Below, piece after piece: positions 1-24,339 of a stretch of 64,000 nucleotides of DNA. The position numbers and the translations under genes are program-made. The DNA is from Siphonodentalium dalli. Lineage: Eukaryota > Mollusca > Scaphopoda > Gadilida > Siphonodentaliidae. A model generated the notes under the pieces. The model did not search any database and was not told where the DNA came from. It saw nothing but the letters and a program-made list of their open reading frames with translations. Location: NCBI GenBank assembly GCA_032622095.1, contig CP136069.1, forward strand, positions 122,874,126-122,938,125, written 5' to 3'. The stretch's first letter is position 1. Each line of letters begins with the position of its first letter.

Positions 1-3
1 TAA

Positions 4-479
4 TTAAAGGCACGGGCGGTGTTCGTTGCAGAAATATTAATATGTGGTCAAATCGCCACCAACAGATGGAATATTAAAATATGTACAGTTTTGTTCATAT
101 ACAAACGTAATCAGCGCATGAATAGTGTATTGTCCTCAATGTGTACGATGATTGCGTAAACAACAGCATGCTCGTGTTACAGAAGTTTTGCTTCTGTTTA
201 CATAACACAACGCAATCAAATTGGTTAATCACACAAACATTATATAAACGCTCTTCATTATTTCCATATAAGAAATATAGTAACAAACAACGCTCTTTAT
301 GCTTACCATATCCGGATCTATACAAAAGTCAGGAAACGTAACGTACTGTTTATGCCATAGTTCTGTATGATATAACAACAAATTCTGCCTATATTTTACT
401 ATTTATGTTTATGGCGGTTTTTGACGGAAATGAATATTTTAACAGCATACCCACCGCCAAAGACAGCCCGTATCTTTAA
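4..479 (+). mobile_element. piggyBac-type MITE, reference monomer copy
   Basis: This is the mobile-element part of the first long satellite unit. The left end reads TTAAAGGCACGGGCGGTGTT. The right end, reverse-complemented, reads TTAAAGATACGGGC and, in sister copies, continues GGTGTT. The inverted similarity goes on imperfectly for about 80 bp: both ends carry TTCAT, then GTCAAA, then CGCCA, then AACAGA, then a TAAAATAT block. TTAA at both outer edges is the piggyBac-superfamily target site. The element is 476 bp here and 525 bp in the larger form. It has no coding capacity. The remaining roughly 180 bp of the unit, up to the next TTAA at 665, is spacer DNA fixed into the tandem unit. Confidence 0.8.
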
Positions 480-3400
480 TATGAGCAAAAACAGATGTTT
501 TTTTATTAATACCAAATGCTCTCACCATACCCAGAAGCTGCACGTTGCATGGAAAATGATATATTGAGATGTCTGCCTAAGGTCGGATTATTTCAAGAGT
601 CTCCCGAGTGTCGTTTCATGTTGTTAGGTATATGTATATCATTACATGGTATTGGTTATAACAATTAAAGGCACGGGCGGCGTTCGTTGCAGAACTATTC
701 ATATGTGATCAAATCGCCACCAACAGATGGAATATTAAAATATATATAGCTGTGTCGAGATGTCTCCCTAAGGTCGGATTATTTCAAGAGTCTCCCTAAT
801 GTCGTTAATTTTGTTAGCTATATGTATATGTATATCAGTACATGGCATTGGTTATAATAATTAAAGGCACGGGCCGTGTTCGTTGCAGAAATATTGATAT
901 GTGGTCAAATCGCCACCAACAGATGGAATATTAAAATATGTACAGTTTTGTTCATATGCAAACGTAATCAGCGCACGAATATTGTATTGTCCTCAAGGTG
1001 TACGATGATTGCGTAAACAACAGTATGCTCGTGTTACAGAAGTTTTGCTTCTGTTTACATAACACAACGCAATCATATTGGTTAATCACACAAACATTAT
1101 ATAAACGCTCTTCATTATTTCCATATAAGAAAAATAGTAACAAACAACGCTCTTTATGCTTACCATATCCGGATCTATACAAAAGTCAGGAAACGAAACG
1201 GTTTTTTCCTTTTGTTTGCACAACAAAGTGAAAACAATTGACAATAACATACTGTTTATGCCATATTTCTGTTTGATATAGCAACAGATTCTGCCTATAT
1301 TTTACTATTTCTGTGTATGGCGGTTTTTGACGGAGATGAATATTTTAACAGCATACCCACCGCCAACACCGCCCGTATCTATAATATGAGCAATAAAAGA
1401 TGTTTTTTTATTAATACCAAATGCTCTCACCATACCCTGAAGCTGCACGTTGCATGGAAAATGATATATTGAGATGTCTGTCTAAGGTCGGATTATTTCA
1501 AGAGTCTCCCGAATGTCGTTTCATGTTGTTAGGTATATGTATATCATTACATGGTATTGGTTATAATAATTAAAGGCACGGGCGGCGTTCGTTGCAGAAC
1601 TATTCATATGTGATCAAATCGCCACCAACAGATGGAATATTAAAATATATATAGCTTTGTCGAGATGTCTCCCTAAGGTCGGATTATTTCAAGAGTCTCC
1701 CTAATGTCGTTAATTTTGTTAGCTATATGTATATGTATATGCGTACATGGCATTGGTTATAATAATTAAAGGCACGGGCCGTGTTCGTTGCAGAAATATT
1801 AATATGTGGTCAAATCGCCACCAACAGATGGAATATTAAAATATGTACAGTTTTGTTCATATGCAAACGTAATGAGCGCATGAATAGTGTATTGTCCTCA
1901 ATGTGTACGATGATTGCGTAAACAACAGCATGCTCGTGTTACAGAAGTTTTGCTTCTGTTTACATAACACAACGCAATCATATTGGTTAATCACACAAAC
2001 ATTATATAAACGCTCTTCATTATTTCCATATAAGAAATATAGTAACAAACAACGCTCTTTATGCTTACCATATCCGGATCTATACAAAAGTCAGGAAACG
2101 TAACGTACTGTTTATGCCATAGTTCTGTATGATATAACAACAAATTCTGCCTATATTTTACTATTTCTGTTATGGCGGTTTTTGACGGAGCTGAATATTT
2201 TAACAGCATACCCACCGCCAAAGACAGTCCGTATCTTTAATATGAGCAATAAAAGATGTTTTTTTATTAATACCAAATGCTCTCACCATACCCTGAAGCT
2301 ACACGTTGCATGGAAAATGATATATTGAGATGTCTGCCTAAGGTCGGATTATTTCAAGAGTCTCCCGAATGTCGTTTCATGTTGTTAGGTATATGTATAT
2401 CATTACATGGTATTGGTTATAATAATTAAAGGCACGGGCGGCGTTCGTTGCAGAACTATTCATATGTGATCAAATCGCCACCAACAGATGGAATATTAAA
2501 ATATATATAGCTTTGTTGAGATGTCTCCCTAAGGTCGGATTATTTCAAGAGTCTCCCTAATGTCGTTAATTTTGTTAGCTATATGTATATGTATATCAGT
2601 ACATGGCATTGGTTATAATAATTAAAGGCACGGGCGGTGTTCGTTGCAGAAATATTAATATGTGGTCAAATCGCCACCAACAGATGGAATATTAAAATAT
2701 GTACAGTTTTGTTCATATACAAACGTTATCAGCGCATGAATAGTGTATTGTCCTCAATGTGTACGATGATTGCGTAAACAACAGCATGCTCGTGTTACAG
2801 AAGTTTTGCTTCTGTTTACATAACACAACGCAATCAAATTGGTTAATCACACAAACATTATATAAACGCTCTTCTTATTTCCATATAAGAAATATAGTAA
2901 CAAACAACGCTCTTTATGCTTACCATATCCGGATCTATACAAAAGTCAGGAAAGGTAACGTACTGTTTATGCCATAGTTCTGTATGATATAACAACAAAT
3001 TCTGCCTATATTTTACTATTTCTGTTTATGGCGGTTTTTGACGGAAATGAATATTTTAACAGCATACCCACCGCCATAGACAGCCCGTATCTTTAATATG
3101 AGCAATAACAGATGTTTTTTTATTAATACCAAATGCTCTCACCATACCCAGAAGCTGCACGTTGCATGAAAAATGATATATTGAGATGTCTGCCTAAGGT
3201 CGGATTATTTCAAGAGTCTCCCGAATGTCGTTTCATGTTGTTAGGTATATGTATATCATTACATGGTATTGGTTATAATAATTAAAGGCACGGGCGGCGT
3301 TCGTTGCAGAACTATTCATATGTGATCAAATCGCCACCAACAGATGGAATATTAAAATATATATAGCTGTGTCGAGATGTCTCCCTAAGGTCGGATTATT

Positions 3401-4382
3401 TCAAGAGTCTCCCTAATGTCGTTAATTTTGTTAGCTATATGTATATGTATATCAGTACATGGCATTGGTTATAATAATTAAAGGCACGGGCCGTGTTCGT
3501 TGCAGAAATATTGATATGTGGTCAAATCGCCACCAACAGATGGAATATTAAAATATGTACAGTTTTGTTCATATGCAAACGTAATCAGCGCACGAATAGT
3601 GTATTGTCCTCAAGGTGTACGATGATTGCGTAAACAACAGCATGCTCGTGTTACAGAAGTTTTGCTTCTGTTTACATAACACAACGCAATCATATTGGTT
3701 AATCACACAAATATTATTTAAACGCTCTTCATTATTTCCATATAAGAAAAATAGTAACAAACAACGCTCTTTATGATTACCATATCCGGATCTATACAAT
3801 AGTCAGGAAACGTAACGGTTTTTTCCTTTTGTTTGCACAACAAAGTGAAAACAATTGACAATAACATACTGTTTATGCCATATTTCTGTATGATATAACA
3901 ACAACTTCTGCCTATATTTTACTATTTCTGTTTATGGCGGTTTTTGACAGAGATGAATATTTTAACAGCATACCCACCGCCAACACCGCCCGTATCTTTA
4001 ATATGAGCAATAAAAGATGTTTTTTTATTAATACCAAATGCTCTCATCATACCCAGAAGCTGCACGTTGCATGGAAAATGATATATTGAGATGTCTGCCT
4101 AAGGTCGGATTATTTCAAGAGTCTCCCGAATGTCGTTTCATGTTGTTAGGTATATGTATATCATTACATGGTATTGGTTATAATAATTAAAGGCACGGGC
4201 GCCGTTCGTTGCAGAACTATTCATATGTGATCAAATCGCCACCAACAGATGGAATATTAAAATATATATAGATTTGTCGAGATGTCTCCCTAAGGTCGGA
4301 TTATTTCAAGAGTCTCACTAATGTCGTTAATTTTGTTAGCTATATGTATATGTATATGAGTACATGGCATTGGTTATAATAA
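4..4382 (+). repeat. Higher-order repeat copy 1 (4379 bp)
   Basis: Ten units in the order long 661, short 196, long 709, short 196, long 660, short 196, long 660, short 196, long 709, short 196, which sums to 4379 bp. The five long types (call them A to E) can be told apart by fixed differences. For example, the fourth lacks the three bases between CTCTTC and TTATTTCC, and the fifth has ATGATTACC where others have ATGCTTACC. Each type recurs at the same place in the next copy. Confidence 0.9.
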
Positions 4383-7300
4383 TTAAAGGCACGGGTGGCG
4401 TTCGTTGCAGAACTATTCATATGTGATCAAATCGCCACCAACAGATGGAATATTAAAATATGTACAGTTTTGTTCATATACAAACGTAATCAGCGCATGA
4501 ATAGTGTATTGTCCTCAATGTGTACGATGATTGCGTAAACAACAGCATGCTCGTGTTACAGAAGTTTTGCTTCTGTTTACATAACACAACGCAATCAAAT
4601 TGGTTAATCACACAAACATTATATAAACGCTCTTTATTATTTCCATATAAGAAATATAGTAACAAACAACGCTCTTTATGCTTACCATATCCGGATCTAT
4701 ACAAAAGTCAGGAAACGTAACGTACTGTTTATGCCATAGTTCTGTATGATATAACAACAAATTCTGCCTATATTTTACTATTTATGTTTATGGCAGTTTT
4801 TGACGGAAATGAATATTTTAACAGCATACCCACCGCCAAAGACAGCCCGTATCTTTAATATGAGCAAAAACAGATGTTTTTTTATTAATACCAAATGCTC
4901 TCACCATACCCAGAAGCTGCACGTTTCATGGAAAATGATATATTGAGATGTCTGCCTAAGGTCGGATTATTTCAAGAGTCTCCCGAGTGTCGTTTCATGT
5001 TGTTAGGTATATGTATATCATTACATGGTATTGGTTATAATAATTAAAGGCACGGGCGGCGTTCGTTGCAGAACTATTCATATGTGATCAAATCGCCACC
5101 AACAGATGGAATATTAAAATATATATAGCTGTGTCGAGATGTCTCCCTAAGGTCGGATTATTTCAAGAGTCTCCCTAATGTCGTTAATTTTGTTAGCTAT
5201 ATGTATATGTATATCAGTACATGGCATTGGTTATAATAATTAAAGGCACGGGCCGTGTTCGTTGCAGAAATATTGATATGTGGTCAAATCGCCACCAACA
5301 GATGGAATATTAAAATATGTACAGTTTTGTTCATATGCAAACGTAATCAGCGCACGAATATTGTATTGTCCTCAAGGTGTACGATGATTGCGTAAACAAC
5401 AGTATGCTCGTGTTACAGAAGTTTTGCTTCTGTTTACATAACACAACGCAATCATATTGGTTAATCACACAAACATTATATAAACGCTCTTCATTATTTC
5501 CATATAAGAAAAATAGTAACAAACAACGCTCTTTATGCTTACCATATCCGGATCTATACAAAAGTCAGGAAACGAAACGGTTTTTTCCTTTTGTTTGCAC
5601 AACAAAGTGAAAACAATTGACAATAACATACTGTTTATGCCATATTTCTGTTTGATATAACAACAGATTCTGCCTATATTTTACTATTTCTGTGTATGGC
5701 GGTTTTTGACGGAGATGAATATTTTAACAGCATACCCACCGCCAACACCGCCCGTATCTATAATATGAGCAATAAAAGATGTTTTTTTATTAATACCAAA
5801 TGCTCTCACCATACCCTGAAGCTGCACGTTGCATGGAAAATGATATATTGAGATGTCTGTCTAAGGTCGGATTATTTCAAGAGTCTCCCGAATGTCGTTT
5901 CATGTTGTTAGGTATATGTATATCATTACATGGTATTGGTTATAATAATTAAAGGCACGGGCGGCGTTCGTTGCAGAACTATTCATATGTGATCAAATCG
6001 CCACCAACAGATGGAATATTAAAATATATATAGCTTTGTCGAGATGTCTCCCTAAGGTCGGATTATTTCAAGAGTCTCCCTAATGTCGTTAATTTTGTTA
6101 GCTATATGTATATGTATATGAGTACATGGCATTGGTTATAATAATTAAAGGCACGGGCCGTGTTCGTTGCAGAAATATTAATATGTGGTCAAATCGCCAC
6201 CAACAGATGGAATATTAAAATATGTACAGTTTTGTTCATATGCAAACGTAATGAGCGCATGAATAGTGTATTGTCCTCAATGTGTACGATGATTGCGTAA
6301 ACAACAGCATGCTCGTGTTACAGAAGTTTTGCTTCTGTTTACATAACACAACGCAATCATATTGGTTAATCACACAAACATTATATAAACGCTCTTCATT
6401 ATTTCCATATAAGAAATATAGTAACAAACAACGCTCTTTATGCTTACCATATCCGGATCTATACAAAAGTCAGGAAACGTAACGTACTGTTTATGCCATA
6501 GTTCTGTATGATATAACAACAAATTCTGCCTATATTTTACTATTTCTGTTATGGCGGTTTTTGACGGAGCTGAATATTTTAACAGCATACCCACCGCCAA
6601 AGACAGTCCGTATCTTTAATATGAGCAATAAAAGATGTTTTTTTATTAATACCAAATGCTCTCACCATACCTTGAAGCTACACGTTGCATGGAAAATGAT
6701 ATATTGAGATGTCTGCCTAAGGTCGGATTATTTCAAGAGTCTCCCGAATGTCGTTTCATGTTGTTAGGTATATGTATATCATTACATGGTATTGGTTATA
6801 ATAATTAAAGGCACGGGCGGCGTTCGTTGCAGAACTATTCATATGTGATCAAATCGCCACCAACAGATGGAATATTAAAATATATATAGCTTTGTTGAGA
6901 TGTCTCCCTAAGGTCGGATTATTTCAAGAGTCTCCCTAATGTCGTTAATTTTGTTAGCTATATGTATATGTATATCAGTACATGGCATTGGTTATAATAA
7001 TTAAAGGCACGGGCGGTGTTCGTTGCAGAAAAATTAATATGTGGTCAAATCGCCACCAACAGATGGAATATTAAAATATGTACAGTTTTGTTCATATACA
7101 AACGTAATCAGCGCATGAATAGTGTATTGTCCTCAATGTGTACGATGATTGCGTAAACAACAGCATGCTCGTGTTACAGAAGTTTTGCTTCTGTTTACAT
7201 AACACAACGCAATCAAATTGGTTAATCACACAAACATTATATAAACGCTCTTCTTATTTCCATATAAGAAATATAGTAACAAACAACGCTCTTTATGCTT

Positions 7301-8761
7301 ACCATATCCGGATCTATACAAAAGTCAGGAAAGGTAACGTACTGTTTATGCCATAGTTCTGTATGATATAACAACAAATTCTGCCTATATTTTACTATTT
7401 CTGTTTATGGCGGTTTTTGACGGAAATGAATATTTTAACAGCATACCCACCGCCATAGACAGCCCGTATCTTTAATATGAGCAATAACAGATGTTTTTTT
7501 ATTAATACCAAATGCTCTCACCATACCCAGAAGCTGCACGTTGCATGAAAAATGATATATTGAGATGTCTGCCTAAGGTCGGATTATTTCAAGAGTCTCC
7601 CGAATGTCGTTTCATGTTGTTAGGTATATGTATATCATTACATGGTATTGGTTATAATAATTAAAGGCACGGGCGGCGTTCGTTGCAGAACTATTCATAT
7701 GTGATCAAATCGCCACCAACAGATGGAATATTAAAATATATATAGCTGTGTCGAGATGTCTCCCTAGGGTCGGATTATTTCAAGAGTCTCCCTAATGTCG
7801 TTAATTTTGTTAGCTATATGTATATGTATATCAGTACATGGCATTGGTTATAATAATTAAAGGCACGGGCCGTGTTCGTTGCAGAAATATTGATATGTGG
7901 TCAAATCGCCACCAACAGATGGAATATTAAAATATGTACAGTTTTGTTCATATGCAAACGTAATCAGCGCACGAATAGTGTATTGTCCTCAATGTGTACG
8001 ATGATTGCGTAAACAACAGCATGCTCGTGTTACAGAAGTTTTGCTTCTGTTTACATAACACAACGCAATCATATTGGTTAATCACACAAATATTATTTAA
8101 ACGCTCTTCATTATTTCCATATAAGAAAAATAGTAACAAACAACGCTCTTTATGATTACCATATCCGGATCTATACAATAGTCAGGAAACGTAACGGTTT
8201 TTTCCTTTTGTTTGCACAACAAAGTGAAAACAATTGACAATAACATACTGTTTATGCCATATTTCTGTATGATATAACAACAACTTCTGCCTATATTTTA
8301 CTATTTCTGTTTATGGCGGTTTTTGACGGAGATGAATATTTTAACAGCATACCCACCGCCAACACCGCCCGTATCTATAATATGAGCAATAAAAGATGTT
8401 TTTTTATTAATACCAAATGCTCTCACCATACCCTGAAGCTGCACGTTGCATGGAAAATGATATATTGAGATGTCTGTCTAAGGTCGGATTATTTCAAGAG
8501 TCTCCCGAATGTCGTTTCATGTTGTTAGGTATATGTATATCATTACATGGTATTGGTTATAATAATTAAAGGCACGGGCGCCGTTCGTTGCAGAACTATT
8601 CATATGTGATCAAATCGCCACCAACAGATGGAATATTAAAATATATATAGATTTGTCGAGATGTCTCCCTAAGGTCGGATTATTTCAAGAGTCTCACTAA
8701 TGTCGTTAATTTTGTTAGCTATATGTATATGTATATGAGTACATGGCATTGGTTATAATAA
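4383..8761 (+). repeat. Higher-order repeat copy 2 (4379 bp)
   Basis: Same five long/short pairs in the same order and the same total length as copy 1. Base differences from copy 1 are few. One is CTCTTTATTATT at 4630 against CTCTTCATTATT, another is GGCAGTTTTTG near 4793 against GGCGGTTTTTG. Neighbouring units of different type differ far more than units of the same type 4379 bp apart. That is the signature of recent amplification of whole blocks. Confidence 0.9.
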
Positions 8762-10719
8762 TTAAAGGCACGGGTGGCGTTCGTTGCAGAACTATTCATA
8801 TGTGATCAAATCGCCACCAACAGATGGAATATTAAAATATATATAGCTTTGTCGAGATGTCTCCCTAAGGTCGGATTATTTCAAGAGTATCCCTAATGTC
8901 GTTAATTGTGTTAGCTATATGTATATGTATATCAGTACATGGCATTGGTTATAATAATTAATCGCACGGGCGGTGTTCGTTGCAGAAATATTAATATGTG
9001 GTCAAATCGCCACCAACAGATGGAATATTAAAATATGTACAGTTTTGTTCATATACAAACGTAATGAGCGCATGAATAGTGTATTGTCCTCAATGTGTAT
9101 GATGATTGCGTAAACAACAGCATCCTCGTGTTACAGAAGTTTTGCTTCTGTTTACATAACACAACGCAATCAAATTGGTTAATCACACAAACATTATATA
9201 AACGCTCTTCTTATTTCCATATAAGAAATATAGTAACAAACAACGCTCTTTATGCTTACCATATCCGGATCTATACAAAAGTCAGGAAAGGTAACGTACT
9301 GTTTATGCCATAGTTCTGTATGATATAACAACAAATTCTGCCTATATTTTACTATTTCTGTTTATGGCGGTTTTTGACGGAAATGAATATTTTAACAGCA
9401 TACCCACCGCCATAGACAGCCCGTATCTTTAATATGAGCAATAACAGATGTTTTTTTATTAATACCAAATGCTCTCACCATACCCAGAAGCTGCACGTTG
9501 CATGAAAAATGATATATTGAGATGTCTGCCTAAGGTCGGATTATTTCAAGAGTCTCCCGAATGTCGTTTCATGTTGTTAGGTATATGTATATCATTACAT
9601 GGTATTGGTTATAATAATTAAAGGCACGGGCGGCGTTCGTTGCAGAACTATTCATATGTGATCAAATCGCCACCAACAGATGGAATATTAAAATATATAT
9701 AGCTGTGTCGAGATGTCTCCCTAAGGTCGGATTATTTCAAGAGTCTCCCTAATGTCGTTAATTTTGTTAGCTATATGTATATGTATATCAGTACATGGCA
9801 TTGGTTATAATAATTAAAGGCACGGGCCGTGTTCGTTGCAGAAATATTGATATGTGGTCAAATCGCCACCAACAGATGGAATATTAAAATATGTACAGTT
9901 TTGTTCATATGCAAACGTAATCAGCGCACGAATAGTGTATTGTCCTCAAGGTGTACGATGATTGCGTAAACAACAGCATGCTCGTGTTACAGAAGTTTTG
10001 CTTCTGTTTACATAACACAACGCAATCATATTGGTTAATCACACAAATATTATTTAAACGCTCTTCATTATTTCCATATAAGAAAAATAGTAACAAACAA
10101 CGCTCTTTATGATTACCATATCCGGATCTATACAATAGTCAGGAAACGTAACGGTTTTTTCCTTTTGTTTGCACAACAAAGTGAAAACAATTGACAATAA
10201 CATACTGTTTATGCCATATTTCTGTATGATATAACAACAACTTCTGCCTATATTTTACTATTTCTGTTTATGGCGGTTTTTGACGGAGATGAATATTTTA
10301 ACAGCATACCCACCGCCAACACCGCCCGAATCTTTAATATGAGCAATAAAAGATGTTTTTTTTATTAATACCAAATGCTCTCATCATACCCAGAAGCTGC
10401 ACGTTGCATGGAAAATGATATATTGAGATGTCTGCCTAAGGTCGGATTATTTCAAGAGTCTCCCGAATGTCGTTTCATGTTGTTAGGTATATGTATATCA
10501 TTACATGGTATTGGTTATAATAATTAAAGGCACGGGCGCCGTTCGTTGCAGAACTATTCATATGTGATCAAATCGCCACCAACAGATGGAATATTAAAAT
10601 ATATATAGATTTGTCGAGATGTCTCCCTAAGGTCGGATTATTTCAAGAGTCTCACTAATATCGTTAATTTTGTTAGCTATATGTATATGTATATGAGTAC
10701 ATGGCATTGGTTATAATAA
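8762..10719 (+). repeat. Partial higher-order copy: extra short unit plus D and E pairs
   Basis: An extra short unit at 8762-8957 carries private variants (GAGTATCCCTAATG, AATTGTGTTAGC), and the next unit begins TTAATCGCACGGG. It is followed by only the fourth and fifth long/short pairs (8958-10719; 1762 bp against 1761 bp in copy 1, the extra base being one T in the run near 10355). The same variant short unit reappears at 15085, again after an E pair. This fits unequal exchange in register with the block structure. Confidence 0.85.
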
Positions 10720-13700
10720 TTAAAGGCACGGGTGGCGTTCGTTGCAGAACTATTCTCGCCACCAACAGATGGAATATTAAAATATGTACAGTTTTGTTCA
10801 TATACAAACGTAATCAGCGCATGAATAGTGTATTGTCCTCAATGTGTACGATGATTGCGTAAACAACAGCATGCTCGTGTTACAGAAGTTTTGCTTCTGT
10901 TTACATAACACAACGCAATCAAATTGGTTAATCACACAAACATTATATAAACGCTCTTCATTATTTCCATATAAGAAATATAGTAACAAACAACGCTCTT
11001 TATGCTCACCATATCCGGATCTATACAAAAGTCAGGAAACGTAACGTACTGTTTATGCCATAGTTCTGTATGATATAACAACAAATTCTGCCTATATTTT
11101 ACTATTTCTGTTATGGCGGTTTTTGACGGAGCTGAATATTTTAACAGCATACCCACCGCCAAAGACAGTCCGTATCTTTAATATGAGCAATAAAAGATGT
11201 TTTTTTATTAATACCAAATGCTCTCACCATACCCAGAAGCTGCACGTTGCATGGAAAATGATATATTGAGATGTCTGCCTAAGGTCGGATTATTTCAAGA
11301 GTCTCCCGAGTGTCGTTTCATGTTGTTAGGTATATGTATATCATTACATGGTATTGGTTATAATAATTAAAGGCACGGGCGGCGTTCGTTGCAGAACTAT
11401 TCATATGTGATCAAATCGCCACCAACAGATGGAATATTAAAATATATATAGCTGTGTCGAGATGTCTCCCTAAGGTCGGATTATTTCAAGAGTCTCCCTA
11501 ATGTCGTTAATTTTGTTAGCTATATGTATATGTATATCAGTACATGGCATTGGTTATAATAATTAAAGGCACGGGCCGTGTTCGTTGCAGAAATATTGAT
11601 ATGTGGTCAAATCGCCACCAACAGATGGAATATTAAAATATGTACAGTTTTGTTCATATGCAAACGTAATCAGCGCACGAATATTGTATTGTCCTCAAGG
11701 TGTACGATGATTGCGTAAACAACAGTATGCTCGTGTTACAGAAGTTTTGCTTCTGTTTACATAACACAACGCAATCATATTGGTTAATCACACAAACATT
11801 ATATAAACGCTCTTCATTATTTCCATATAAGAAAAATAGTAACAAACAACGCTCTTTATGCTTACCATATCCGGATCTATACAAAAGTCAGGAAACGAAA
11901 CGGTTTTTTCCTTTTGTTTGCACAACAAAGTGAAAACAATTGACAATAACATACTGTTTATGCCATATTTCTGTTTGATATAACAACAGATTCTGCCTAT
12001 ATTTTACTATTTCTGTGTATGGCGGTTTTTGACGGAGATGAATATTTTAACAGCATACCCACCGCCAACAACGCCCGTATCTATAATATGAGCAATAAAA
12101 GATGTTTTTTTATTAATACCAAATGCTCTCACCATACCCTGAAGCTGCACGTTGCATGGAAAATGATATATTGAGATGTCTGTCTAAGGTCGGATTATTT
12201 CAAGAGTCTCCCGAATGTCGTTTCATGTTGTTAGGTATATGTATATCATTACATGGTATTGGTTATAATAATTAAAGGCACGGGCGGCGTTCGTTGCAGA
12301 ACTATTCATATGTGATCAAATCGCCACCAACAGATGGAATATTAAAATATATATAGCTTTGTCGAGATGTCTCCCTAAGGTCGGATTATTTCAAGAGTCT
12401 CCCTAATGTCGTTAATTTTGTTAGCTATATGTATATGTATATGAGTACATGGCATTGGTTATAATAATTAAAGGCACGGGCCGTGTTCGTTGCAGAAATA
12501 TTAATATGTGGTCAAATCGCCACCAACAGATGGAATATTAAAATATGTACAGTTTTGTTCATATGCAAACGTAATGAGCGCATGAATAGTGTATTGTCCT
12601 CAATGTGTACGATGATTGCGTAAACAACAGCATGCTCGTGTTACAGAAGTTTTGCTTCTGTTTACATAACACAACGCAATCATATTGGTTAATCACACAA
12701 ACATTATATAAACGCTCTTCATTATTTCCATATAAGAAATATAGTAACAAACAACGCTCTTTATGCTCACCATATCCGGATCTATACAAAAGTCAGGAAA
12801 CGTAACGTACTGTTTATGCCATAGTTCTGTATGATATAACAACAAATTCTGCCTATATTTTACTATTTCTGTTATGGCGGTTTTTGACGGAGCTGAATAT
12901 TTTAACAGCATACCCACCGCCAAAGACAGTCCGTATCTTTAATATGAGCAATAAAAGATGTTTTTTTATTAATACCAAATGCTCTCACCATACCCTGAAG
13001 CTACACGTTGCATGGAAAATGATATATTGAGATGTCTGCCTAAGGTCGGATTATTTCAAGAGTCTCCCGAATGTCGTTTCATGTTGTTAGGTATATGTAT
13101 ATCATTACATGGTATTGGTTATAATAATTAAAGGCACGGGCGGCGTTCGTTGCAGAACTATTCATATGTGATCAAATCGCCACCAACAGATGGAATATTA
13201 AAATATATATAGCTTTGTTGAGATGTCTCCCTAAGGTCGGATTATTTCAAGAGTCTCCCTAATGTCGTTAATTTTGTTAGCTATATGTATATGTATATCA
13301 GTACATGGCATTGGTTATAATAATTAAAGGCACGGGCGGTGTTCGTTGCAGAAATATTAATATGTGGTCAAATCGCCACCAACAGATGGAATATTAAAAT
13401 ATGTACAGTTTTGTTCATATACAAACGTAATCAGCGCATGAATAGTGTATTGTCCTCAATGTGTACGATGATTGCGTAAACAACAGCATGCTCGTGTTAC
13501 AGAAGTTTTGCTTATGTTTACATAACACAACGCAATCAAATTGGTTAATCACACAAACATTATATAAACGCTCTTCTTATTTCCATATAAGAAATATAGT
13601 AACAAACAACGCTCTTTATGCTTACCATATCCGGATCTATACAAAAGTCAGGAAAGGTAACGTACTGTTTATGCCATAGTTCTGTATGATATAACAACAA

Positions 13701-15084
13701 ATTCTGCCTATATTTTACTATTTCTGTTTATGGCGGTTTTTGACGGAAATGAATATTTTAACAGCATACCCACCGCCATAGACAGCCCGTATCTTTAATA
13801 TGAGCAATAACAGATGTTTTTTTATTAATACCAAATGCTCTCACCATACCCAGAAGCTGCACGTTGCATGAAAAATGATATATTGAGATGTCTGCCTAAG
13901 GTCGGATTATTTCAAGAGTCTCCCGAATGTCGTTTCATGTTGTTAGGTATATGTATATCATTACATGGTATTGGTTATAATAATTAAAGGCACGGGCGGC
14001 GTTCGTTGCAGAACTATTCATATGTGATCAAATCGCCACCAACAGATGGAATATTAAAATATATATAGCTGTGTCGAGATGTCTCCCTAAGGTCGGATTA
14101 TTTCAAGAGTCTCCCTAATGTCGTTAATTTTGTTAGCTATATGTATATGTATATCAGTACATGGCATTGGTTATAATAATTAAAGGCACGGGCCGTGTTC
14201 GTTGCAGAAATATTGATATGTGGTCAAATCGCCACCAACAGATGGAATATTAAAATATGTACAGTTTTGTTCATATGCAAACGTAATCAGCGCACGAATA
14301 GTGTATTGTCCTCAATGTGTACGATGATTGCGTAAACAACAGCATGCTCGTGTTACAGAAGTTTTGCTTCTGTTTACATAACACAACGCAATCATATTGG
14401 TTAATCACACAAATATTATTTAAACGCTCTTCATTATTTCCATATAAGAAAAATAGTAACAAACAACGCTCTTTATGATTACCATATCCGGATCTATACA
14501 ATAGTCAGGAAACGTAACGGTTTTTTCCTTTTGTTTGCACAACAAAGTGAAAACAATTGACAATAACATACTGTTTATGCCATATTTCTGTATGATATAA
14601 CAACAACTTCTGCCTATATTTTACTATTTCTGTTTATGGCGGTTTTTGACGGAGATGAATATTTTAACAGCATACCCACCGCCAACACCGCCCGTATCTT
14701 TAATATGAGCAATAAAAGATGTTTTTTTATTAATACCAAATGCTCTCATCATACCCAGAAGCTGCACGTTGCATGGAAAATGATATATTGAGATGTCTGC
14801 CTAAGGTCGGATTATTTCAAGAGTCTCCCGAATGTCGTTTCATGTTGTTAGGTATATGTATATCATTACATGGTATTGGTTGTAATAATTAAAGGCACGG
14901 GCGCCGTTCGTTGCAGAACTATTCATATGTGATCAAATCGCCACCAACAGATGGAATATTAAAATATATATAGATTTGTCGAGATGTCTCCCTAAGGTCG
15001 GATTATTTCAAGAGTCTCACTAATGTCGTTAATTTTGTTAGCTATATGTATATGTATATGAGTACATGGCATTGGTTATAATAA
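10720..15084 (+). repeat. Higher-order repeat copy 3 (4365 bp, 14-bp deletion)
   Basis: Five pairs in the same order as copies 1 and 2. The length is 4365 bp because 14 bases are missing near 10755, where ACTATTC runs directly into TCGCCACC. Otherwise it matches the other copies closely. Confidence 0.88.
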
Positions 15085-18000
15085 TTAAAGGCACGGGTGG
15101 CGTTCGTTGCAGAACTATTCATATGTGATCAAATCGCCACCAACAGATGGAATATTAAAATATATATAGCTTTGTCGAGATGTCTCCCTAAGGTCGGATT
15201 ATTTCAAGAGTATCCCTAATGTCGTTAATTGTGTTAGCTATATGTATATGTATATCAGTACATGGCATTGGTTATAATAATTAATCGCACGGGCGGTGTT
15301 CGTTGCAGAAATATTAATATGTGGTCAAATCGCCACCAACAGATGGAATATTAAAATATGTACAGTTTTGTTCATATACAAACGTAATCAGCGCATGAAT
15401 AGTGTATTGTCCTCAATGTGTACGATGATTGCGTAAACAGCATGCTCGTGTTACAGAAGTTTTGCTTCTGTTTACATAACACAACGCAATCATATTGGTT
15501 AATCACACAAACATTATATAAACGCTCTTCATTATTTCCATATAAGAAATATAGTAACAAACAACGCTCTTTATGCTTACCATATCCGGATCTATACAAA
15601 AGTCAGGAAACGTAACGTACTGTTTATGCCATAGTTATGTATGATTTAACAACAAATTCTGCCTATATTTTACTATTTCTGTTTATGGCGGTTTTTGACG
15701 GAGATGAATATTTTAACAGCATACCCACCGCCAACAACGCCCGTATCTATAATATGAGCAATAAAAGATGTTTTTTTATTTATACAAAATGCTCTCACCA
15801 TACCCAGAAGCTGCACGTTGCATGGAAAATGATATATTGAGATGTCTGTCTAAGGTCGGATTATTTCAAGAGTCTCCCGAATGTCGTTTCATGTTGTTAG
15901 GTATATGTATATCATTACATGGTATTGGTTATAATAATTAAAGGCACGGGCGGCGTTCGGTGCAGAACTATTCATATGTAATCAAATCGCCACCAACAGA
16001 TGGAATATTAAAATATATATAGCTTTGTCGAGATGTCTCCCTAAGGTCGGATTATTTCAAGAGTCTCCATAATGTCGTTAATTTTGTTAGCTATATGCAT
16101 ATGTATATCAGTACATGGCATTGGTTATAATAATTAAAGGCACGGGCGGTGTTCGTTGCAGAAGTATTAATATGTGGTCAAATCGCCACCAACAGATGGA
16201 ATATTAAAATATGTACAGTTTTGTTCATATGCAAACGTAATCAGCGCGTGAATAGTGTATTGTCCTCAATGTGTACGATGATTGCGTAAACAACAGCATG
16301 CTCGTGTTACAGAAGTTTTGCTTCTGTTTACATAACACAACGCAATCATATTGGTTAATCACACAAACATTATATAAACGCTCTTCATTATTTCCATATA
16401 AGAACAATAGTAACAAACAACGCTCTTTATGCTTACCATATCCGAGTCTATACAAAAGTCAGGAAACGTAACGGTTTTTTCCTTTTGTTTGCACAACAAA
16501 GTGAAAACAATTGACAATAACATACTGTTTATGCCATATTTCTGTATGATATAACAAAACATTCTGCCTATATTTTACTATTTCTGTTTATGGCTGTTTT
16601 TGAAGGAGATGAATATTTTAACAGCATACCCACCGCCAAAGACAGCCCGTATCTTTAATATGAGCAATAAAAGATGTTTTTTTATTAATACCAAATGCTC
16701 TCACCATACCCAGAAGCTGCACGTTGCATGGAAAATGATATATTGAGATGTTTGCCTAAGGTCGGATTATTTCAAGAGTCTCCCGAATGTCGTTTCATGT
16801 TGTTAGGTATATGTATATCATTACATGCTATTGGTTATAATAGTTAAAGGCACGGGCGGCGTTCGTTGCAGAACTATTCATATGTGATCAAATCGCCACC
16901 AACAGATGGAATATTAAAATATATATAGCTTTGTCGAGATGTCTCCCTAAGGTCGGATTATTTCAAGAGTCTCCCTAATGTCGTTAATTTTGTTAGCTAT
17001 ATGTATATGTATATCAGTACATGGCATTGGTTATAATAATTAAAGGCACGGGTGGCGTTCGTTGCAGAACTATTCATATGTGATCAAATCGCCACCAACA
17101 GATGGAATATTAAAATATATATAGCTTTGTCGAGATGTCTCCCTAAGGTCGGATTATTTCAAGAGTCTCCCTAATGTCGTTAATTTTGTTAGCTATATGT
17201 ATATGTATATCAGTACATGGCATTGGTTATAATAATTAAAGGCACGGGCGGTGTTCGTTGCAGAAATATTAATATGTGGTCAAATCGCCACCAACAGATG
17301 GAATATTAAAATATATACAGATTTGTTCATATGCAAACGTAATCAGCGCATGAATAGTGTATTGTCCTCAATGTGTACGATGATTGCGTAAACAGCATGC
17401 TCGTGTTACAGAAGTTTTGCTTCTGTTTACATAACACAACGCAAACATATTGGTTAATCACACAAACATTATATAAACGCTCTTCATTATTTCCATATAA
17501 GAAAAATAGTAACAAACAATGCTCTTTATGCTTACCATATCCGGATCTATACAAAAGTCAGGAAACGTAACGGTTTTTTCCTTTTGTTTGCACAACAAAG
17601 TGAAAACAATTGACAACAACATACTGTTTATGCCATATTTCTGTATGATATAACAACAAATTCTGCCTATATTTTACTATTTCTGTTTATGGCGGTTTTT
17701 GACGGAGATGAATATTTTAACAGCATACCCACCGCCAACACCGCCCGTATCTATAATATGAGCAATAAAAGATGTGTTGTTATTAATACCAAATGCTCTC
17801 ACCATATCCAGAAGCTGCACGTTGCATGGAAAATGATATATTGAGATGTCTGCCTAAGGTCGGATTATTTCAAGAATCTCCCTAATGTCGTTCATGTTGT
17901 TAGGTATATGTATATCATTACATGGTATTGGTTACAATAATTAAAGGCACGAGCGGTGTTCGTTGCAGAAATATTCACATGTGTTCAAATCGCCACCAAC

Positions 18001-20861
18001 AGATGGAATATTAAAATATATATAGCTGTGTCGAGATGTCTCCCTAAGGTCGGATTATTTCAAGAGTCTCCATAATGTCGTTAATTTTGTTAGCTATATG
18101 TATATGTATATCAGTACACGGCATTGGTTATAATAATTAAAGGCACGGGCGGTGTTCGTTGCAGAAATATTAATATGTGGTCAAATCGCCACCAACAGAT
18201 GGAATATTAAAATATGTACAGTTTTGTTCATATGTGCAAACGTAATCAGCGCGTGAATAGTGTATTGTCCTCAATGTGTACGATGATTGCGTAAACAACA
18301 GCATGCTCGTGTTACAGAAGTTTTGCTTCTGTTTACCTAACACAACGCAATCATATTGGTTAATGACACAAACATTATATAAACGCTCTTCATTATTTCC
18401 ATATAAGAAAAATAGTAACAAACAACGCTCTTTGTGCTTACCATATGCGGATCTATGCAAAAGTCAGGAAACGTAACGTTTTTTTCTTTTTGTTTGCACA
18501 ACAAAGTGAAAACAATTGACAATAACATACTGTTTATGCCATATTTCTGTATGATATAACAAAACATTCTGCCTATATTTTACTATTTCTGTTTATGGCT
18601 GTTTTTGAAGGAGATGAATATTTTAACAACATACCCACCGCCAACACCGCCCGTATCTTTAATATGAGCAATAAAAGATGGTTTTTTTTATTATTAATAC
18701 CAATGCTCTCACCATACCAAGAAGCTGCGCGTTGAATGGCAAATGATATATTGAGATGTCTCCCTAAGGTCGGATTATTTCAAGAATCTCCCTAATGTCG
18801 TTCATGTTGTTAGGTAAATGTATATCATTACATGGTATTGGTTACAATAATTAAAGGCACGAGCGGCGTTCGTTGCAGAAATATTCAAATGTGTTCAAAT
18901 CGCCACCAACAGATGGAATATTAAAATATATATAGCTGTGTCGAGATGTCTCCCTAAGGTCGGATTATTTCAAGAGTCTCCATAATGTCGTTAATTTTGT
19001 TAGCTATATGTATATGTATATCAGTACACGGCATTGGTTATCATAATTAAAGGCTCGGGCGGCGTTCGTTGCAGAAATATTAATATGCGGTCAAATCGCC
19101 ACCATCAATATGAATATTAAAATATATAGTTTTGTTCATATGCAAACATAATCAGCTCGTAAATAGTATATTGTCCTCAAGGTGTACGATGGTTGTGTGA
19201 ACAACAGCCTGCTCGTGTTACAGAAGTTTTGCTGCTGTTTACATAACACAACGCAGTCATATTGGTTAATCTCACAAACATTACATGAACGCTCTTCATT
19301 ATTTCCATATAAGAAAAACAGTAGCAAAGAACGCTTTTTATGCTTACCATATCCGGATCTATACAAAAGTCAGGAAACGTAACGGTTTTTTCCTTGTGTT
19401 TGCACAACAAAGTGAAAACAATTGACAATAACATACTGTTTATGCCATAGTTCTGTATGATATAACAACAAATTCTGCCTATATTTTACTATTTCTCTTT
19501 ATGGCGGTTTTTGACGGAGCTGAATATTTTAACAGCATACCCACCGCCAAAGACCGCCCGTATATTTAATATGAGCAATAAAAGATGTTTTTTTATTAAT
19601 ACCAAATGCTCTCACCATACCCAGAAGCTGCACGTTGCATGGAAAATGATTTATTGAGATGTCTCCCTAAGGTCAGATTATTTCAAGAATCTCCATAATG
19701 TCGTTCATGCTGTTAGGTATATGTATATCATTACATGGTATTGGTTATAATAATTAAAGGCACGGGTGGCGTTCGTTGCAGAAATATTCATATGTGTTCA
19801 AATCGCCACCAACAGATGGAATATTAAAATATATATAGCTGTGTCGAGATGTCTCCCTAAGGTCGGATTATTTCAAGAGTCTCCCTAATGTCGTTAATAT
19901 TGTTAGCTATAGGTATATGTATATCAGTACATGGCATTGGTTATAATAATTAAAGGCACGGGCGGTGTTCGTTGCAGAAATATTAATATGTGCTCAAATC
20001 GCCACCAACAGATGGAATATTAAAATATGCACAGTTTTGTTCATATGCAAACGTAATCAGCGCGTGGATAGTGTATTGTCCTCAATGTGTACACTGATTG
20101 CGTAAACAACAGCATGCTCGTGTTACAGAAGTTTTGCGTCTGTTTACATAACACAACGCAATCATATTGGTTAATCACACAAACATTATATAAACGCTCT
20201 TCATTATTTCCATATAAGAAAAACAGTAACAAACAACGCTCTTTATGCTTAACATATCCGGATCTACACAAAAGCCAGGAAACGTAACGGTTTTTTCCTT
20301 GTGTTTGCACAACAAAGTGAAAACAATTGACAATAACATACTGTTTATGCCATATTTTTGTATGATATAACAACAAATTCTGCCTATATTTTACTATTTC
20401 TGTTTATGGCGGTTTTTGACGGAGATGAATATTTTAACAGCATACCCAACACCGCCCGTATCTTTAATATGAGCAATAAAAGATGTGTTTTTATTATTAT
20501 TAATACCAAATGCTCTCACCATACACAGAAGCTGCGCTTTGCATGGAAAATGATATATTGAGATGTCTCCCTAAGGTCGGATTATTTCAAGAGTCTCCCT
20601 AATGTCGTTCATGTTGTTAGGTATATGTATACCATTACATGGTATTGGTTATAATAATTAAAGGCACGGGTGGCGTTCGTTGAAGAAATATTCATGTGTT
20701 CAAATCGCCACCAACAGATGGAATATTAAAATATATATAGCTGTGTCGAGTTGTCTCCCTAAGGTCGGATTATTTCAAGAGTCTCCATAATGTCGTTAAT
20801 TTTGTTAGCTATATGTATATGTATATCAGTACATGGCATTGGTTATAATAATTAAAGGCAC
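15085..20861 (+). repeat. Diverged flank of the satellite array
   Basis: Long and short units still alternate (TTAA starts at 15085, 15281, 15938, 16134, 16844, 17040, 17236, 17941, 18137, 18851, 19047, 19754, 19950, 20658), but the five-type block order is lost and units differ increasingly from one another. Two short units stand side by side at 16844-17039 and 17040-17235. Variants private to this zone include GGCTGTTTTTGAAGGAG and extra T/A runs at 18680 and 20488. This is the usual decay toward an array edge that unequal exchange no longer homogenises. Confidence 0.85.
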
Positions 20862-21710
20862 GGGCGGTGTTCGTTGCAGAAATATTAATATGTGGTCAAA
20901 TCGCCACCAACAGATGGAATATTAAAATATGTACAGTTTTGTTCAGATGCAAACGTAATCAGCGCGTGAATAGTGTATTGTCCTCAATGTGTACGATGAT
21001 TGCGTAAACAGCATGCTCTTGTTACGGAAGTTTTGCTTCTGTTTACATAACACAACGCAATTATAGTGGTTAATCACACAAACATTATATAAACGCTCTT
21101 TATTATTTCCATATAAGGAAAGTAGTAACAAATAACGCTCTTTATGTTTACCATATCCGGATCTAAATAAAACCTAGGAAAGGTAACGTTGTTTGCTTTT
21201 GTTTACGTAACACATTTGACGGATGTGAATATGTTAGTAGCATGCCCACCGCCGACACTGGCCGTATCTTTTATATAGCAATAAAAGATTTTTTGTTCGT
21301 TTGATACCAAATGCTCTCACCATAACCATAAGCTTTACGTTGCATAGAAAATGATATATCGAGATGTCTCGCCATCAACATATGGAATATTAAAGCATTG
21401 TTCATATGCAAACATAATGGGGCGTAAATAGTGTATTGTGTAATAGTATACTGTCTTCAAGGTGTGCGATGATTGCCAACACCGCCCGTATCTGTGATAT
21501 AGCAATAAAAGATGTTTTTTTTCGATTAATAACAAATGCCCTCACCTTACCCAGAAGCTACGCGTTGCATAGAAAATGATATATCGAGATTCGCCATAAG
21601 GTCGGATTATTTCAAGAGTCTCCCAAAGGTTTATGGCTGTTTTTGACGGATGTGAATATTTTAACAGCATACCCACTGCCAACGCCGCCCGTATCTTTAA
21701 TATAGCAATA
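20862..21710 (+). repeat. Broken terminal monomers at the array edge
   Basis: The last long unit starts at 20862 and breaks up after about 21180. Fragments of monomer sequence follow with deletions: a right-end piece with ACCCACCGCC-like and CGTATCTTTTATATAGC sequence near 21245-21280, another at 21480-21510, and a final right end (GGCTGTTTTTGACGG to CGCCCGTATCTTTAA) at about 21632-21702. No monomer sequence is visible after roughly 21710 until the solo copy at 23159. Confidence 0.8.
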
Positions 21711-22322
21711 AGCAGTTATCAACGTACGATATCTCCATTCGTCGTTTATTTACATGTCTTCATGGCATATGACACTTTCCGACAAACACTTTAAGGACAT
21801 TTCTAACGGGACAATGTTTTCGTTTGAAACGTGTGGGGGAGGGGTTGTGTGTCTTTGTTCAGTCATATACTCATTGTAGCAAATGAACACACCCAGCTTC
21901 ATATGTCGAGTTGTTTGTAGATGCGATCGCGAATCGCGATGGAGAGTTCAAACAATAATGAATATTTCATAATTACCCTCTAATTTGGTTGTTAAAAATA
22001 GATAATGACGACGTGTGCATAGATACATTATCAGACAACAAGTGATCATCGTTTGCGCCACCCAGACCTTGCTTTTTGACGCTGTTGGGAGACAATATTC
22101 AGAAGAAAATACTAAATGCTTGCATATAGAAATGAAATTGATGAGCGTTTGTACATGTATGGTTTAAAATGAAAGAATCAATCGCCGACCCACCCATGGC
22201 GATATAGATGCCATTGTTGGATAAATGGGCTAAATTTGTCAGATTTTCTAGTGATGGTAAACGGGGGTATTGTATCGATCCCCTTGACTTTAATAATACT
22301 ACCGTACTATTAACGTAAAACG
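21711..22322. other. Unassigned intergenic DNA
   Basis: Mixed-composition sequence after the satellite edge. The only thing visible is a short GCGATCGCGAATCGCGAT palindromic stretch near 21925. No reading frame, repeat or RNA gene is recognisable. Confidence 0.5.
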
Positions 22323-22390
22323 TGCATCCAAACTGCCTCTATCCGAGTACATGTATAATAGGGACAGCGCATAGAGGCCGTTTGGATGCA
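22323..22390. repeat. 68-bp hairpin
   Basis: TGCATCCAAACTGCCTCTAT at 22323 is answered by the inverted arm ATAGAGGCCGTTTGGATGCA ending at 22390. Arms are 20 bp with one or two mismatches, and the loop is about 28 bp. It could be a tiny MITE end-to-end remnant or a transcribed stem-loop. No flanking duplication is evident. Confidence 0.6.
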
Positions 22391-23158
22391 TGGAATGGGA
22401 GCGGAGCGCGTTGCAAGTCCATGTGCACTGGTTAATATATTCATTTCCGCTTTAGCTAACAACTTGCCTGATTGCCAACAAATGCATACAGGGCAATTGG
22501 CTGCATGATATTATATTGTCCTTATGAAGGCAGCTTGGGGAGGTGCGGTCCGTGTCATGTTTATGTTGCGCACTTGGCAGAACCGGCCGTAGGTTAACAA
22601 TGCTGTTCTCGCTCGAGCTACCGAGATTGGAACACCTGTATATACATACATGTCTATTCTGCACGAGAGCATTTTCCGGTATTGCATCATTTGGTTAATG
22701 ATTTATTTTGGCCGAATTATACCAAATGTGCTTGTCCCTATAAACATGCTGATGTCAACTTCCATGTACCATGCCATGACCAATGTCCCAATTGTATGGA
22801 TTGTATCCCGTGCTAAATTATTTAACGACAAAATCCGACCAAGATATGCACCAGAGAACATGTTTTGCCGACGACGCCAAATGCAAGTTATTTGTTTTCT
22901 CCCTCAACCAGATAACTTATATCAACCGAGGGCGTTTTGTAATAATGTCGTTTGGTCCCAAAAGGTTTGTCCTACTGTTTGTTTTCTTCCTGAGGGGGTT
23001 TTGTCAGAGTACCATGACAAGATATCTGGACATCAATTCAAATTCAGATGTTTATTGAACATGGATTATCATCAGAACAAAATGAAAATATAACAATGAT
23101 GACGATTTTATAAAAAAAAAACAATGATGACGACTTACATAACATATAATCAAATAAC
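22391..23158. other. Intergenic DNA with an unrecognised 147-codon open frame
   Basis: A frame from ATG at 22650 to the stop ending at 23093 on the plus strand would give 147 residues. It begins with a hydrophobic stretch of Ile/Leu/Met residues and has scattered cysteines. An overlapping frame (22783-23058) is also open, which argues that this is a chance low-stop stretch. I recognise no domain, and there is no matching exon structure nearby. It ends in an A-run near 23113-23122. Treated as non-coding unless transcript data say otherwise. Confidence 0.3.
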
Positions 23159-23618
23159 TTAAAGGCACGGGAGGCCTTAATTGTCGAAAATATTCATATC
23201 TGTTCCAAACACCGTAAACAGAAAAACATTAACACACTTAGTGTTCAATGCATAAATTATATACCATGACAATCGCGTAAACAACAGTATGTTATCATAA
23301 AGATCTACTATATTTTATCTGAACAAGAGCCTGGTTGTGTTACAGAAGACAGCACAATGCTGCATGCTAATCACACACAAATGGTATAAACGCTCTTTAT
23401 TAGTTCCATATCAGGAATTCACCAACAAAGAACGCTCTTTATGTTTACCATAATAATATAAACAAACACCAGAAAAGTAACTGTTTATGCTTTTTTTGTT
23501 TACATAACAATGGTCAAACATATGTCTACATTTTGATGTTCTTTCTGTTTGTGTCGGTTTTTGACGGGTGGAAACATGTTGACAGGATACCCACCGCCAA
23601 GGCCTCCCGTACCTTTAA
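23159..23618 (+). mobile_element. Solo piggyBac-type MITE, forward, diverged
   Basis: A 460-bp relative of the satellite monomer with no spacer attached. It starts TTAAAGGCACGGGAGGCC and ends GGCCTCCCGTACCTTTAA, so the terminal inverted repeats pair almost perfectly over about 18 bp. Internal landmarks appear in satellite order: a GCGTAAACAACAGTATG block, AAACGCTCTTTATTAG, AACGCTCTTTATGTTTACC, GTCGGTTTTTGACGG, and ACCCACCGCC. It is much more diverged from the array than the array units are from each other, so it is an older or separate insertion. It lies about 720 bp upstream of the piggyBac transposase start. Confidence 0.8.
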
Positions 23619-24027
23619 ACGTAGAACTGGATAGCTTCTATCTCATGACATGACTAGACTACTTTGTGGCACATGAGGGGTTTCTGAATTATGACGTAGA
23701 CAGGACACCGATAATGATGAATGTTCACTAATCCTGATATGGAACCAGAGATAAAATGGGAAATAAACAGTATCCGTTATCATGAACGCCCTTGTTGCAC
23801 TTCCATCCGAACTGTGTGGTGAACCATTGACCGATTTAATTTGGATATGGCTCAACATGAGCATTATGCCAAAGTTATATTTGTCTCAGGAAAACTACGA
23901 AAACCAACAGCGTCTGTCCGAGTGTGCGTCATTTCGTGCGTGCGTGCGCATTTTGGTTTGCGAACGATAACTTTAGTAACGTTAAAATTGTATTAATTTT
24001 CTGCGCATGTTTTATCTCTTTACTCCC

Positions 24028-24152
24028 CATAAGCGTCCCTGGACGCTTTTGCACTATTTCCACATAAGCGCATGTGGACGCCTCGCAACATATCCCTAGA
24101 CGCGCATAAGAGCGCGTTACCAGACTTCCACACAAGCGCCCTAGAGCGCCAC
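24028..24152. promoter_or_regulatory. Cluster of GCGTCC/GGACGC palindromic motifs upstream of the transposase
   Basis: Four related motifs occur about every 33 bp. AAGCGTCCCTGGACGCTT at 24031 is a near-perfect palindrome. ATAAGCGCATGTGGACGCC lies near 24064, a TAGACGCGCATAAGAGCGCG form near 24097, and CACAAGCGCCCTAGAGCGCC near 24131. Spacing and symmetry suggest protein-binding repeats, either subterminal repeats of the piggyBac element or a promoter-proximal array, since the transposase ATG is about 190 bp downstream. I see no counterpart downstream of the gene, so the role is open. Confidence 0.4.
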
Positions 24153-24339
24153 ACTAGGCCCAGACTGTACTAATGAGTTCGCCCCTATGCCCCCCACTTT
24201 TGCTATGTTTCTAATCGAGACCACCCGGTTGTGTCAACTCGTTATCTGCCTATCTAATAACAATAAACGTGGCACCGTGTGCATCGCGCGCGACACATGC
24301 TGTGTTACTTTGGTACCATTCTAAGTATTTACGAACAAC

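Follow-up and report, generated by a model that had tools for sequence, protein, structure and literature searches.

The first 21.7 kb of a 64,000-bp stretch of the genome of the scaphopod Siphonodentalium dalli (assembly GCA_032622095.1, contig CP136069.1, positions 122,874,126–122,938,125; hereafter the window) are a tandem, head-to-tail satellite array, which runs past the left window edge. This satellite is very probably the cargo of a giant DNA transposon. Its unit, composed of a miniature inverted-repeat transposable element (MITE) and the end of a transposon inserting into (AT)n tracts, was probably amplified in tandem, dispersed and locally re-homogenised. The unit is composite and has low-copy forms, the array lies inside a giant element that targets (AT)n, and the arrays of different copies differ in length and in period. 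A sequence-only reading of the window had described the array as a piggyBac-type MITE which, with about 180 bp of adjacent DNA, was converted into a higher-order satellite. The searches described below cover the genome, 2.23 Gb in nine contigs.

The array (1–21710, forward strand) extends leftward in the genome to about window coordinate -4153 and is 25.9 kb long in all. In each full unit the mobile part is 454–518 bp, excluding the TTAAs, and the spacer that follows is 184–190 bp, exactly 185 bp in 18 of 23 full units. The truncated last units beyond 20852 are excluded from this set of 23. The mobile part at 861–1384 (forward strand) is an example of the long form of the MITE, with 516 bp between the TTAA positions, the right one of which reads ATAA; the short form is mostly 467–468 bp, about 49 bp less. 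After every full unit come one or two short units of 196 bp, for example at 1570–1765 (forward strand), which consist of the first 92 bp of the MITE at its left end and the last 104 bp of the spacer. To judge from this composition, the short unit looks like an internal deletion of the full unit.

Five dimers of full and short units constitute a higher-order unit of 4,379 bp. Copies A (4–4382), B (4383–8761) and C (10720–15084) of the higher-order repeat, all on the forward strand, are accompanied by a partial repeat between B and C (8762–10719, forward strand), which contains an extra short unit and then two full units with short units. Identity is 0.986–0.998 over 1–4000 at the lag of 4,379 bp and 0.992–1.0 over 5001–9000 at the lag of 6,323 bp; the lags of 4,379, 6,323, and 10,702 bp all give identities of 0.98–1.0 across kilobases. 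Cognate full units are 99.4% identical on average, versus 97.0% for non-cognate ones. The cyclic order of unit classes, with labels taken from the same identity matrix, is held in 15 of 16 steps, which 0 of 20,000 shuffles reach. Units at both array edges are more diverged and do not fall within the period. At the right edge (15085–21710, forward strand), units at 15281–20657 show 93–97% average identity to the core, and the last units are internally deleted. The long tandem array, the homogenised multi-unit period and the diverged edges are those of a satellite with higher-order repeats, and the hierarchical organisation proposed from the sequence is real.

TTAA begins all 50 left ends inside the window. 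At the right ends of the 23 full units TTAA is seen 17 times and ATAA six times, so the proposal that each monomer has TTAA at both ends stands for the left side and is only partly right for the other. The first 16 nucleotides of the two ends agree at 9–14 of 16 positions across the 23 units, and in five units this match beats shuffles (at most 1/20,000). Matching inverted ends are therefore present, as had been noticed, but the exact sequence ACGGGCGG occurs at 26/50 left ends and 9/23 right ends.

Outside the array, TTAA is found at both ends of two MITE copies with no spacer beside them. The copy at 23159–23618 (forward strand), inside the giant element, has a 20-bp terminal inverted repeat with 95% identity, TTAA included; its ends match at 15 of 16 positions, above shuffles (at most 1/20,000). 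The ends of the copy at 26262–26813 (reverse strand) match at 11 of 16, which 7 of 20,000 shuffles reach. The latter copy has an internal piece of about 58 bp (26667–26724) corresponding to the junction between spacer and left end. This piece is inverted in the MITE copy, and a 51-bp stretch of it is closest to the array-edge copy at 18137 (44/51); judging from this resemblance, local copying may have occurred. A right-end piece of the MITE is also present at 33779–33897, within extra DNA at 29045–38876. Beside the copies at 23–34 kb the spacer scores at background level: 19 of 20 flank scores have a null fraction of at least 0.13 and one has 0.0255, the left flank of the 26.3-kb copy being set four bases too far out in this scoring. 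The 23- and 26-kb copies, which had been taken as solo copies, are not independent insertions at this locus, since a giant dispersed element carries them together with the array, but solo copies do exist elsewhere in the genome.

The MITE end TTAAAGGYACGGGMGG has 9,834 exact matches in the genome, array copies included, and its reversed control has none. Twenty isolated end matches on contig 1 were chosen by hand and scored with no null computed. Both ends were located in 18, with one further site (L077) that could not be oriented and another (L074) without a right end in the piece. The right TTAA is present in 17 of the 18, where the right-end pattern includes TTAA with up to two substitutions; the left TTAA is fixed by the search pattern. 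The spacer is absent from every scored flank. Solo copies always accompanied by the spacer or lacking TTAA at both ends, which the sequence-only reading had named as fatal to a MITE origin, are not what these sites show. MITE-free sites, in which the flanks are joined by one TTAA, have 2 exact matches and 73 with up to two mismatches, and 0 in the reversed control. Six such loci were read. Five of them belong to another dispersed repeat and have continuous flanks on both sides; the sixth (L094) is a joint between this repeat and the body of the (AT)n element. Because the end matches are genome-wide, solo copies have TTAA, and an empty TTAA site exists, the mobile part of the array is confirmed as a TTAA-targeting MITE. 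It is short, has terminal inverted repeats and a TTAA duplication, and is dispersed as solo copies. The dispersed repeat around the MITE-free TTAA site of L090–L093 and L095 is a third contributor to the satellite unit. Apart from this, L070, L071, and L073, all among the 20 isolated sites, are MITE copies of the 23.2-kb type with shared flanks at three places, as if they were borne by yet another dispersed repeat.

The ends of the MITE are AGGCACGGG and AGATACGGG. Among full units, AG starts the left end in 21 of 23 and the right end in 22 of 23, mostly as AGG.. or AGA... According to the part of PMC9587614 consulted, Kolobok elements target TTAA and have ends of the type 5'-RR..YY-3'. The TTAA target and the RR..YY ends of the MITE both fit this rule, the superfamily being judged here from the ends. 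The stricter motif of T2-MITE, AGGRR, as given in the available text of PMC6004289, is not matched exactly (AGGCA and AGATA). None of the piggyBac terminal motifs found in the accessible part of PMC10813416 (CACTA, CCCTC, CCCTT, and CCCAT) is seen at the MITE ends. As far as these motifs go, the designation piggyBac-type has to be abandoned in favour of the Kolobok rule. One end pattern searched against a viral collection and one against a prokaryote collection gave 0 matches each.

The spacer has an origin of its own. An alignment shows about 147 of its 185 bp to be an inverted copy of the giant element's left end, and the remaining 37 bp or so are AT-rich; in the example at 1385–1569 (reverse strand) the inverted left terminus comes first and the AT-rich part second. 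The spacer part of the short unit is an inverted copy of the same left end over 62 bp. Since the spacer is an inverted transposon end, the unit is not a MITE plus host DNA, and the adjacent DNA of about 180 bp in the earlier description turns out to be, over some 147 bp, the inverted terminal repeat of another transposon. By alignment, the satellite unit is shown to be a MITE beside the inverted terminal repeat of a transposon that inserts into (AT)n. Low-copy forms of this combination exist. L068 is 1.84 kb long and contains one MITE between the left end and the right end, while L067 is 1.15 kb long and contains a MITE inside inverted left ends. L069, looked at in less detail, is grouped with them.

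The giant element occupies 1–50439 of the window on the forward strand. Its left end is at C9:122869507 (C, contig), 4,618 bp left of the window, and its right end is at 50439; the whole is 55,058 bp, or 45,225 bp without the extra 29045–38876. The array starts 0.5 kb inside the left end. The left boundary is sharp, common to the C1 copy and this copy, and located at an (AT)n tract. On the right side, homology to the C3 and C6 copies ends sharply at 50471–50484, inside the (AT)n microsatellite at 50440–50488, the insertion target on this side. This homology skips 29045–38876 and has smaller gaps elsewhere. The first stretch of the near-constant right part (21711–29044, forward strand) is 99% identical in the C3 and C6 copies up to 29044. 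The second (38877–50439, forward strand) has smaller gaps and insertions between copies and ends with ...TGGCTTCCGCGAAC. The 9.8 kb of extra DNA between them is missing at the same exact point in C3 and C6. A stretch of 3.4 kb right of the array (about 21.7–25.1 kb), which contains the MITE copy at 23.2 kb and reaches into a piggyBac gene, is present in 29 of 29 further loci (L010–L038), with 97.5–99.3% identity in the longest aligned stretch of each and one interrupted; these loci were collected by similarity to the 23.2-kb MITE copy, in a search that scored 40 of 4,955 first-look candidates.

With one mismatch at most, the left end sequence has 104 matches in the genome and the right end sequence 144, and the reversed controls have 0. 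The left ends among the matches listed are on all nine contigs. A properly oriented right end lies within 150 kb of 61 of the 87 left ends used, at a median distance of 41.2 kb, and most copies are 30–60 kb long. This pairing used 87 of 100 listed left ends (104 exist) and 100 of the 144 right ends; 13 listed left ends (five on contig 8 beyond 41.6 Mb and eight on contig 9) were dropped, as the right ends used stop at C8:29.8M. The 61 pairs correspond to 59 right ends, two of which are each shared by two left ends, and one pair is the 1.8-kb L068. (AT)n tracts, some of them imperfect, are on both sides of all 10 sampled copies. The DNA beyond the tracts differs where visible, except that the right flanks of this copy and of the copy at C5:125.5M share their starting repeat. 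An empty site is found at 57784–60294, where a duplicate of both flanks is joined by (AT)n without the element: 57784–59061 corresponds to the left flank (99.9% over 1,278 bp) and 59065–60294 to 50440–51669 (99.8%).

The motif TTAGGGNGAC marks both termini. Four copies, counting both strands, are at 50346–50423 near the right end, and six more are within 459 bp of the left end, so that 10 are seen in the terminal stretches versus 0.004 expected by base shuffling. Elsewhere there are 57 exact copies in the array of this element, 3 in 38877–50200, 0 in 21711–38876, and 0 in 18.8 kb of flanking host DNA.

The satellite and the giant element go together. Among the matches listed, 41 of 41 satellite matches lie inside a same-strand giant-element end within 75 kb, in a search that scored 40 of 2,349 first-look candidates. 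The same is true of 100 of 100 array junctions listed among 1,993 genome-wide, those listed being exact matches on contig 1 only. The distance from the left end to the 23.2-kb MITE copy is 10.7–71.3 kb (standard deviation 12.3, n = 26), including about 2 kb of non-array sequence and perhaps other insertions. From this MITE copy to the right end the distance is 12.6–21.8 kb (standard deviation 2.0, n = 26), near 17 kb. Repeat spacings are 4379, 6323, and 10702 in this copy, 1959, 5010, and 6969 in C6, and 2864 and 3769 in C3. Five C1 copies have 4316; 1102; 1958; 6888 and 11590; and 8564, respectively. In the C3 copy (L041, 355–8286), about 8 kb of the array are inverted relative to their neighbours.

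The only candidate found for moving the giant element is the piggyBac transposase gene inside it (24325–26018, forward strand), as predicted by two matches to PF13843 (E = 9.8e-55 and 6.1e-20) and one to the piggyBat transposase 9c0f (E = 5.7e-23). The gene is interrupted here by a single stop and a single frameshift; in C3 it is open for 584 aa, and in C6 it stops after 88 aa. Among 27 other copies that cover a 735-bp piece of the gene, 11 have this piece open. Singletons in this piece include 38 replacement or stop changes versus 7 silent ones, with 79.6% replacement expected, which is neutral; shared differences (6 versus 1) are too few. For other transposase domains in the giant element, Pfam searches of 10 open reading frames gave only weak matches below the curated cut-offs. 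The giant element has neither piggyBac-type termini nor a TTAA target, as it inserts into (AT)n and its ends are GCTAAC.. and GTTCGC... PiggyBac elements usually target TTAA and have C-rich ends, neither of which agrees with the giant element. Terminal inverted repeats belonging to the gene itself were considered and rejected: the best TTAA pair around it is the two MITE copies (10/14), equalled by one chance pair. The 23.2- and 26.3-kb MITE copies were also considered as long inverted ends of a piggyBac element lying between them and rejected. They are 76.4% identical, and would thus have decayed far more than the gene, since 12% decay gives on average 8.4 new stops in a simple simulation that ignores selection and older copies.

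It can be speculated that the giant element is a possibly autonomous transposon of the piggyBac lineage which switched its target from TTAA to (AT)n, with the satellite as a working part: the array of end motifs might bind or titrate the transposase, or drive exchange between copies, and dispersed seeds would each evolve their own period. This reading is a doubtful one, clearly less probable than the cargo reading in its plain form.

A history in which a piggyBac-type MITE and about 180 bp of ordinary adjacent DNA gave rise to a local satellite is highly improbable. It agrees with TTAA at 50/50 left and 17/23 right ends, with solo copies free of the spacer, and with a piggyBac gene 3 kb away, but it is contradicted on two of its three points: the ends are AGG or AGA, unlike the piggyBac motifs in the consulted part of PMC10813416, and the spacer is a transposon end. 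Moreover, the array belongs to a dispersed element whose listed left ends are on all nine contigs. Hardly more credible, and if anything a little less so, is an (LTDR-INT)n multimer of a non-autonomous KolobokP, in which the MITE would be the LTDR and the spacer a shrunken internal region. The lengths of about 450 bp and the RR..YY ends, together with the solo copies and the multimers in tandem, resemble what the available text of PMC9587614 describes. However, the spacer is an inverted terminal repeat that belongs to a different element, one inserting into (AT)n, and the arrays that were read lie between the ends of that element; neither a KolobokP transposase nor a His-Me nuclease is found among the window's open reading frames tested with Pfam. 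A KolobokP LTDR-INT-LTDR with an INT of its own was rejected on the same ground, the spacer coming from the terminal repeat of another element.

The giant units might instead be segmental duplications produced by recombination between (AT)n tracts, without transposition. The tracts that bound all 10 sampled copies, the local duplication of the flanks at this locus, and the repeat common to two right flanks are compatible with this. Yet one pair of end sequences is found again and again, 104 and 144 times, most flanks that are visible beyond the tracts differ in their DNA, small elements with the same ends exist, and clusters of motifs mark both ends. This possibility is improbable, marginally less so than the local satellite.

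The interpretation of the satellite as cargo of a transposon has points against it as well. No transposase is linked to the ends of the giant element, the sole domain found being piggyBac, and the differences between copies of that gene look neutral from their counts. Both ends and the array were read together in this copy only; the part read in C1 is the left end and the array start, and that in C3 and C6 comprises the right end as well as the array. Misassembly is possible in long arrays. Each of the C1 spacings is based on 2–5 repeats of exact matches. Nor do all copies differ: the spacing of 1,958–1,959 recurs in C6, C1:87.9M, and C1:144.5M, C1:132.7M shows the basic dimer (904) only, and three of 11 C1 clusters (14.8M, 77.3M, and 121.0M) are without a repeated spacing, a fourth having one match. 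The flanks are not all independent, as the right flank repeat of this copy also follows the copy at C5:125.5M. L068 and L067 may be later deletion products and not ancestors. Finally, the MITE-free TTAA sites lie in the third repeat, so it was not the (AT)n element that first received the MITE.

Under the preferred reading, the satellite as transposon cargo, the MITE would have landed in repeat DNA beside the (AT)n element, next to one of its ends. MITE and end, a segment of about 0.7 kb, might then have been duplicated in tandem, perhaps via the ATATAGC match at both borders, and an internal deletion could have generated the 196-bp short unit. Dimers of full and short units would have been amplified next. 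Transposition of the whole could have carried seed arrays to new insertions, where unequal exchange presumably re-homogenised them locally, so that the higher-order periods diverged between copies.

MITE-derived satellites are known in Xenopus and bivalves, according to the portion of PMC9659126 consulted. The Xenopus families Xstir/Xmix (T2-MITE, Kolobok) and miDNA4 are similar in that a MITE, with a TTAA target in the case of T2, became tandem arrays (PMC6004289 and PMC9659126, available parts). In contrast, the repeats there, as described in these parts, lie within one MITE, whereas here a whole MITE and the end of another transposon are amplified in a giant carrier. Tetris/TIR-220 of Drosophila virilis, in the same part of PMC9659126, also forms a satellite from the terminal repeats of a transposon. 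Tetris itself is a foldback element, unlike the array here. We know of no nested MITE or giant carrier for it. KolobokP, in the accessible text of PMC9587614, has repeats of about 450 bp with short inverted ends of their own, solo copies and multimers, but what separates the repeats here is no internal region of the same element. The composite monomers of the "transposon graveyards" hypothesis (PMC12628747, seen in part) likewise contain pieces of several, nested transposons; in the present case, unlike what that part describes, the parents can be identified, there are low-copy forms, and a dispersed element carries the product. Among molluscs, CgiSat13 and CgiSat16 of the Pacific oyster are tandem repeats annotated as DNA/Kolobok (PMC8268682), but their monomers are 2,414 bp and the term "higher-order" is absent from the main text of the paper. 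Teratorn, a fusion of a giant piggyBac and a herpesvirus, resembles the present element as a very large element linked to a piggyBac transposase; compared with Teratorn as it is presented in the material at hand, the element here has no TTAA at its ends, a satellite cargo, and no viral domain among the open reading frames tested. A giant transposon whose cargo is a higher-order satellite combining a MITE with the transposon's own end was not found in the accessible portions of the open-access literature, which is no proof of absence.

The window has several other features. The 9.8-kb extra DNA opens with GCAACCACC and has GGTGGTTGC near its far end, as would be expected of a further transposon, and contains a 164-bp tandem repeat at 34347–36826 (15.5 copies, 75% matches). 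Tandem repeats with periods of 236 and 327 bp are at 39554–40464 and 48787–49749, respectively, in the near-constant part. In the host DNA right of the element, 51640–57491 is retrotransposon-like, with an open reading frame at 53922–57491 containing endonuclease and reverse transcriptase domains; the open reading frames preceding it in this stretch have no Pfam match. This retrotransposon is bracketed by a 1,230-bp direct repeat (50440–51669 and 59065–60294; 99.8%), a relative of which is inverted at 37500–38243. Rfam and tRNA scans were empty.

To our knowledge, the origin of higher-order repeats has mostly been studied in centromeres, whose starting sequence and age are difficult to establish. 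In the present case a single mobile element has brought related arrays to many sites, where each adjoins a datable, near-constant flank, and differences between the arrays in length, and often in period, are already visible. The arrays are natural replicates on which models of unequal exchange, gene conversion, and rolling-circle amplification can be tested. The satellite of S. dalli is also a concrete example, low-copy forms included, of how a composite monomer derives from two transposons, and a case of a satellite dispersed as the cargo of a transposon. If it is true that the piggyBac gene moves the giant element, this would in addition be a case of changed target preference.

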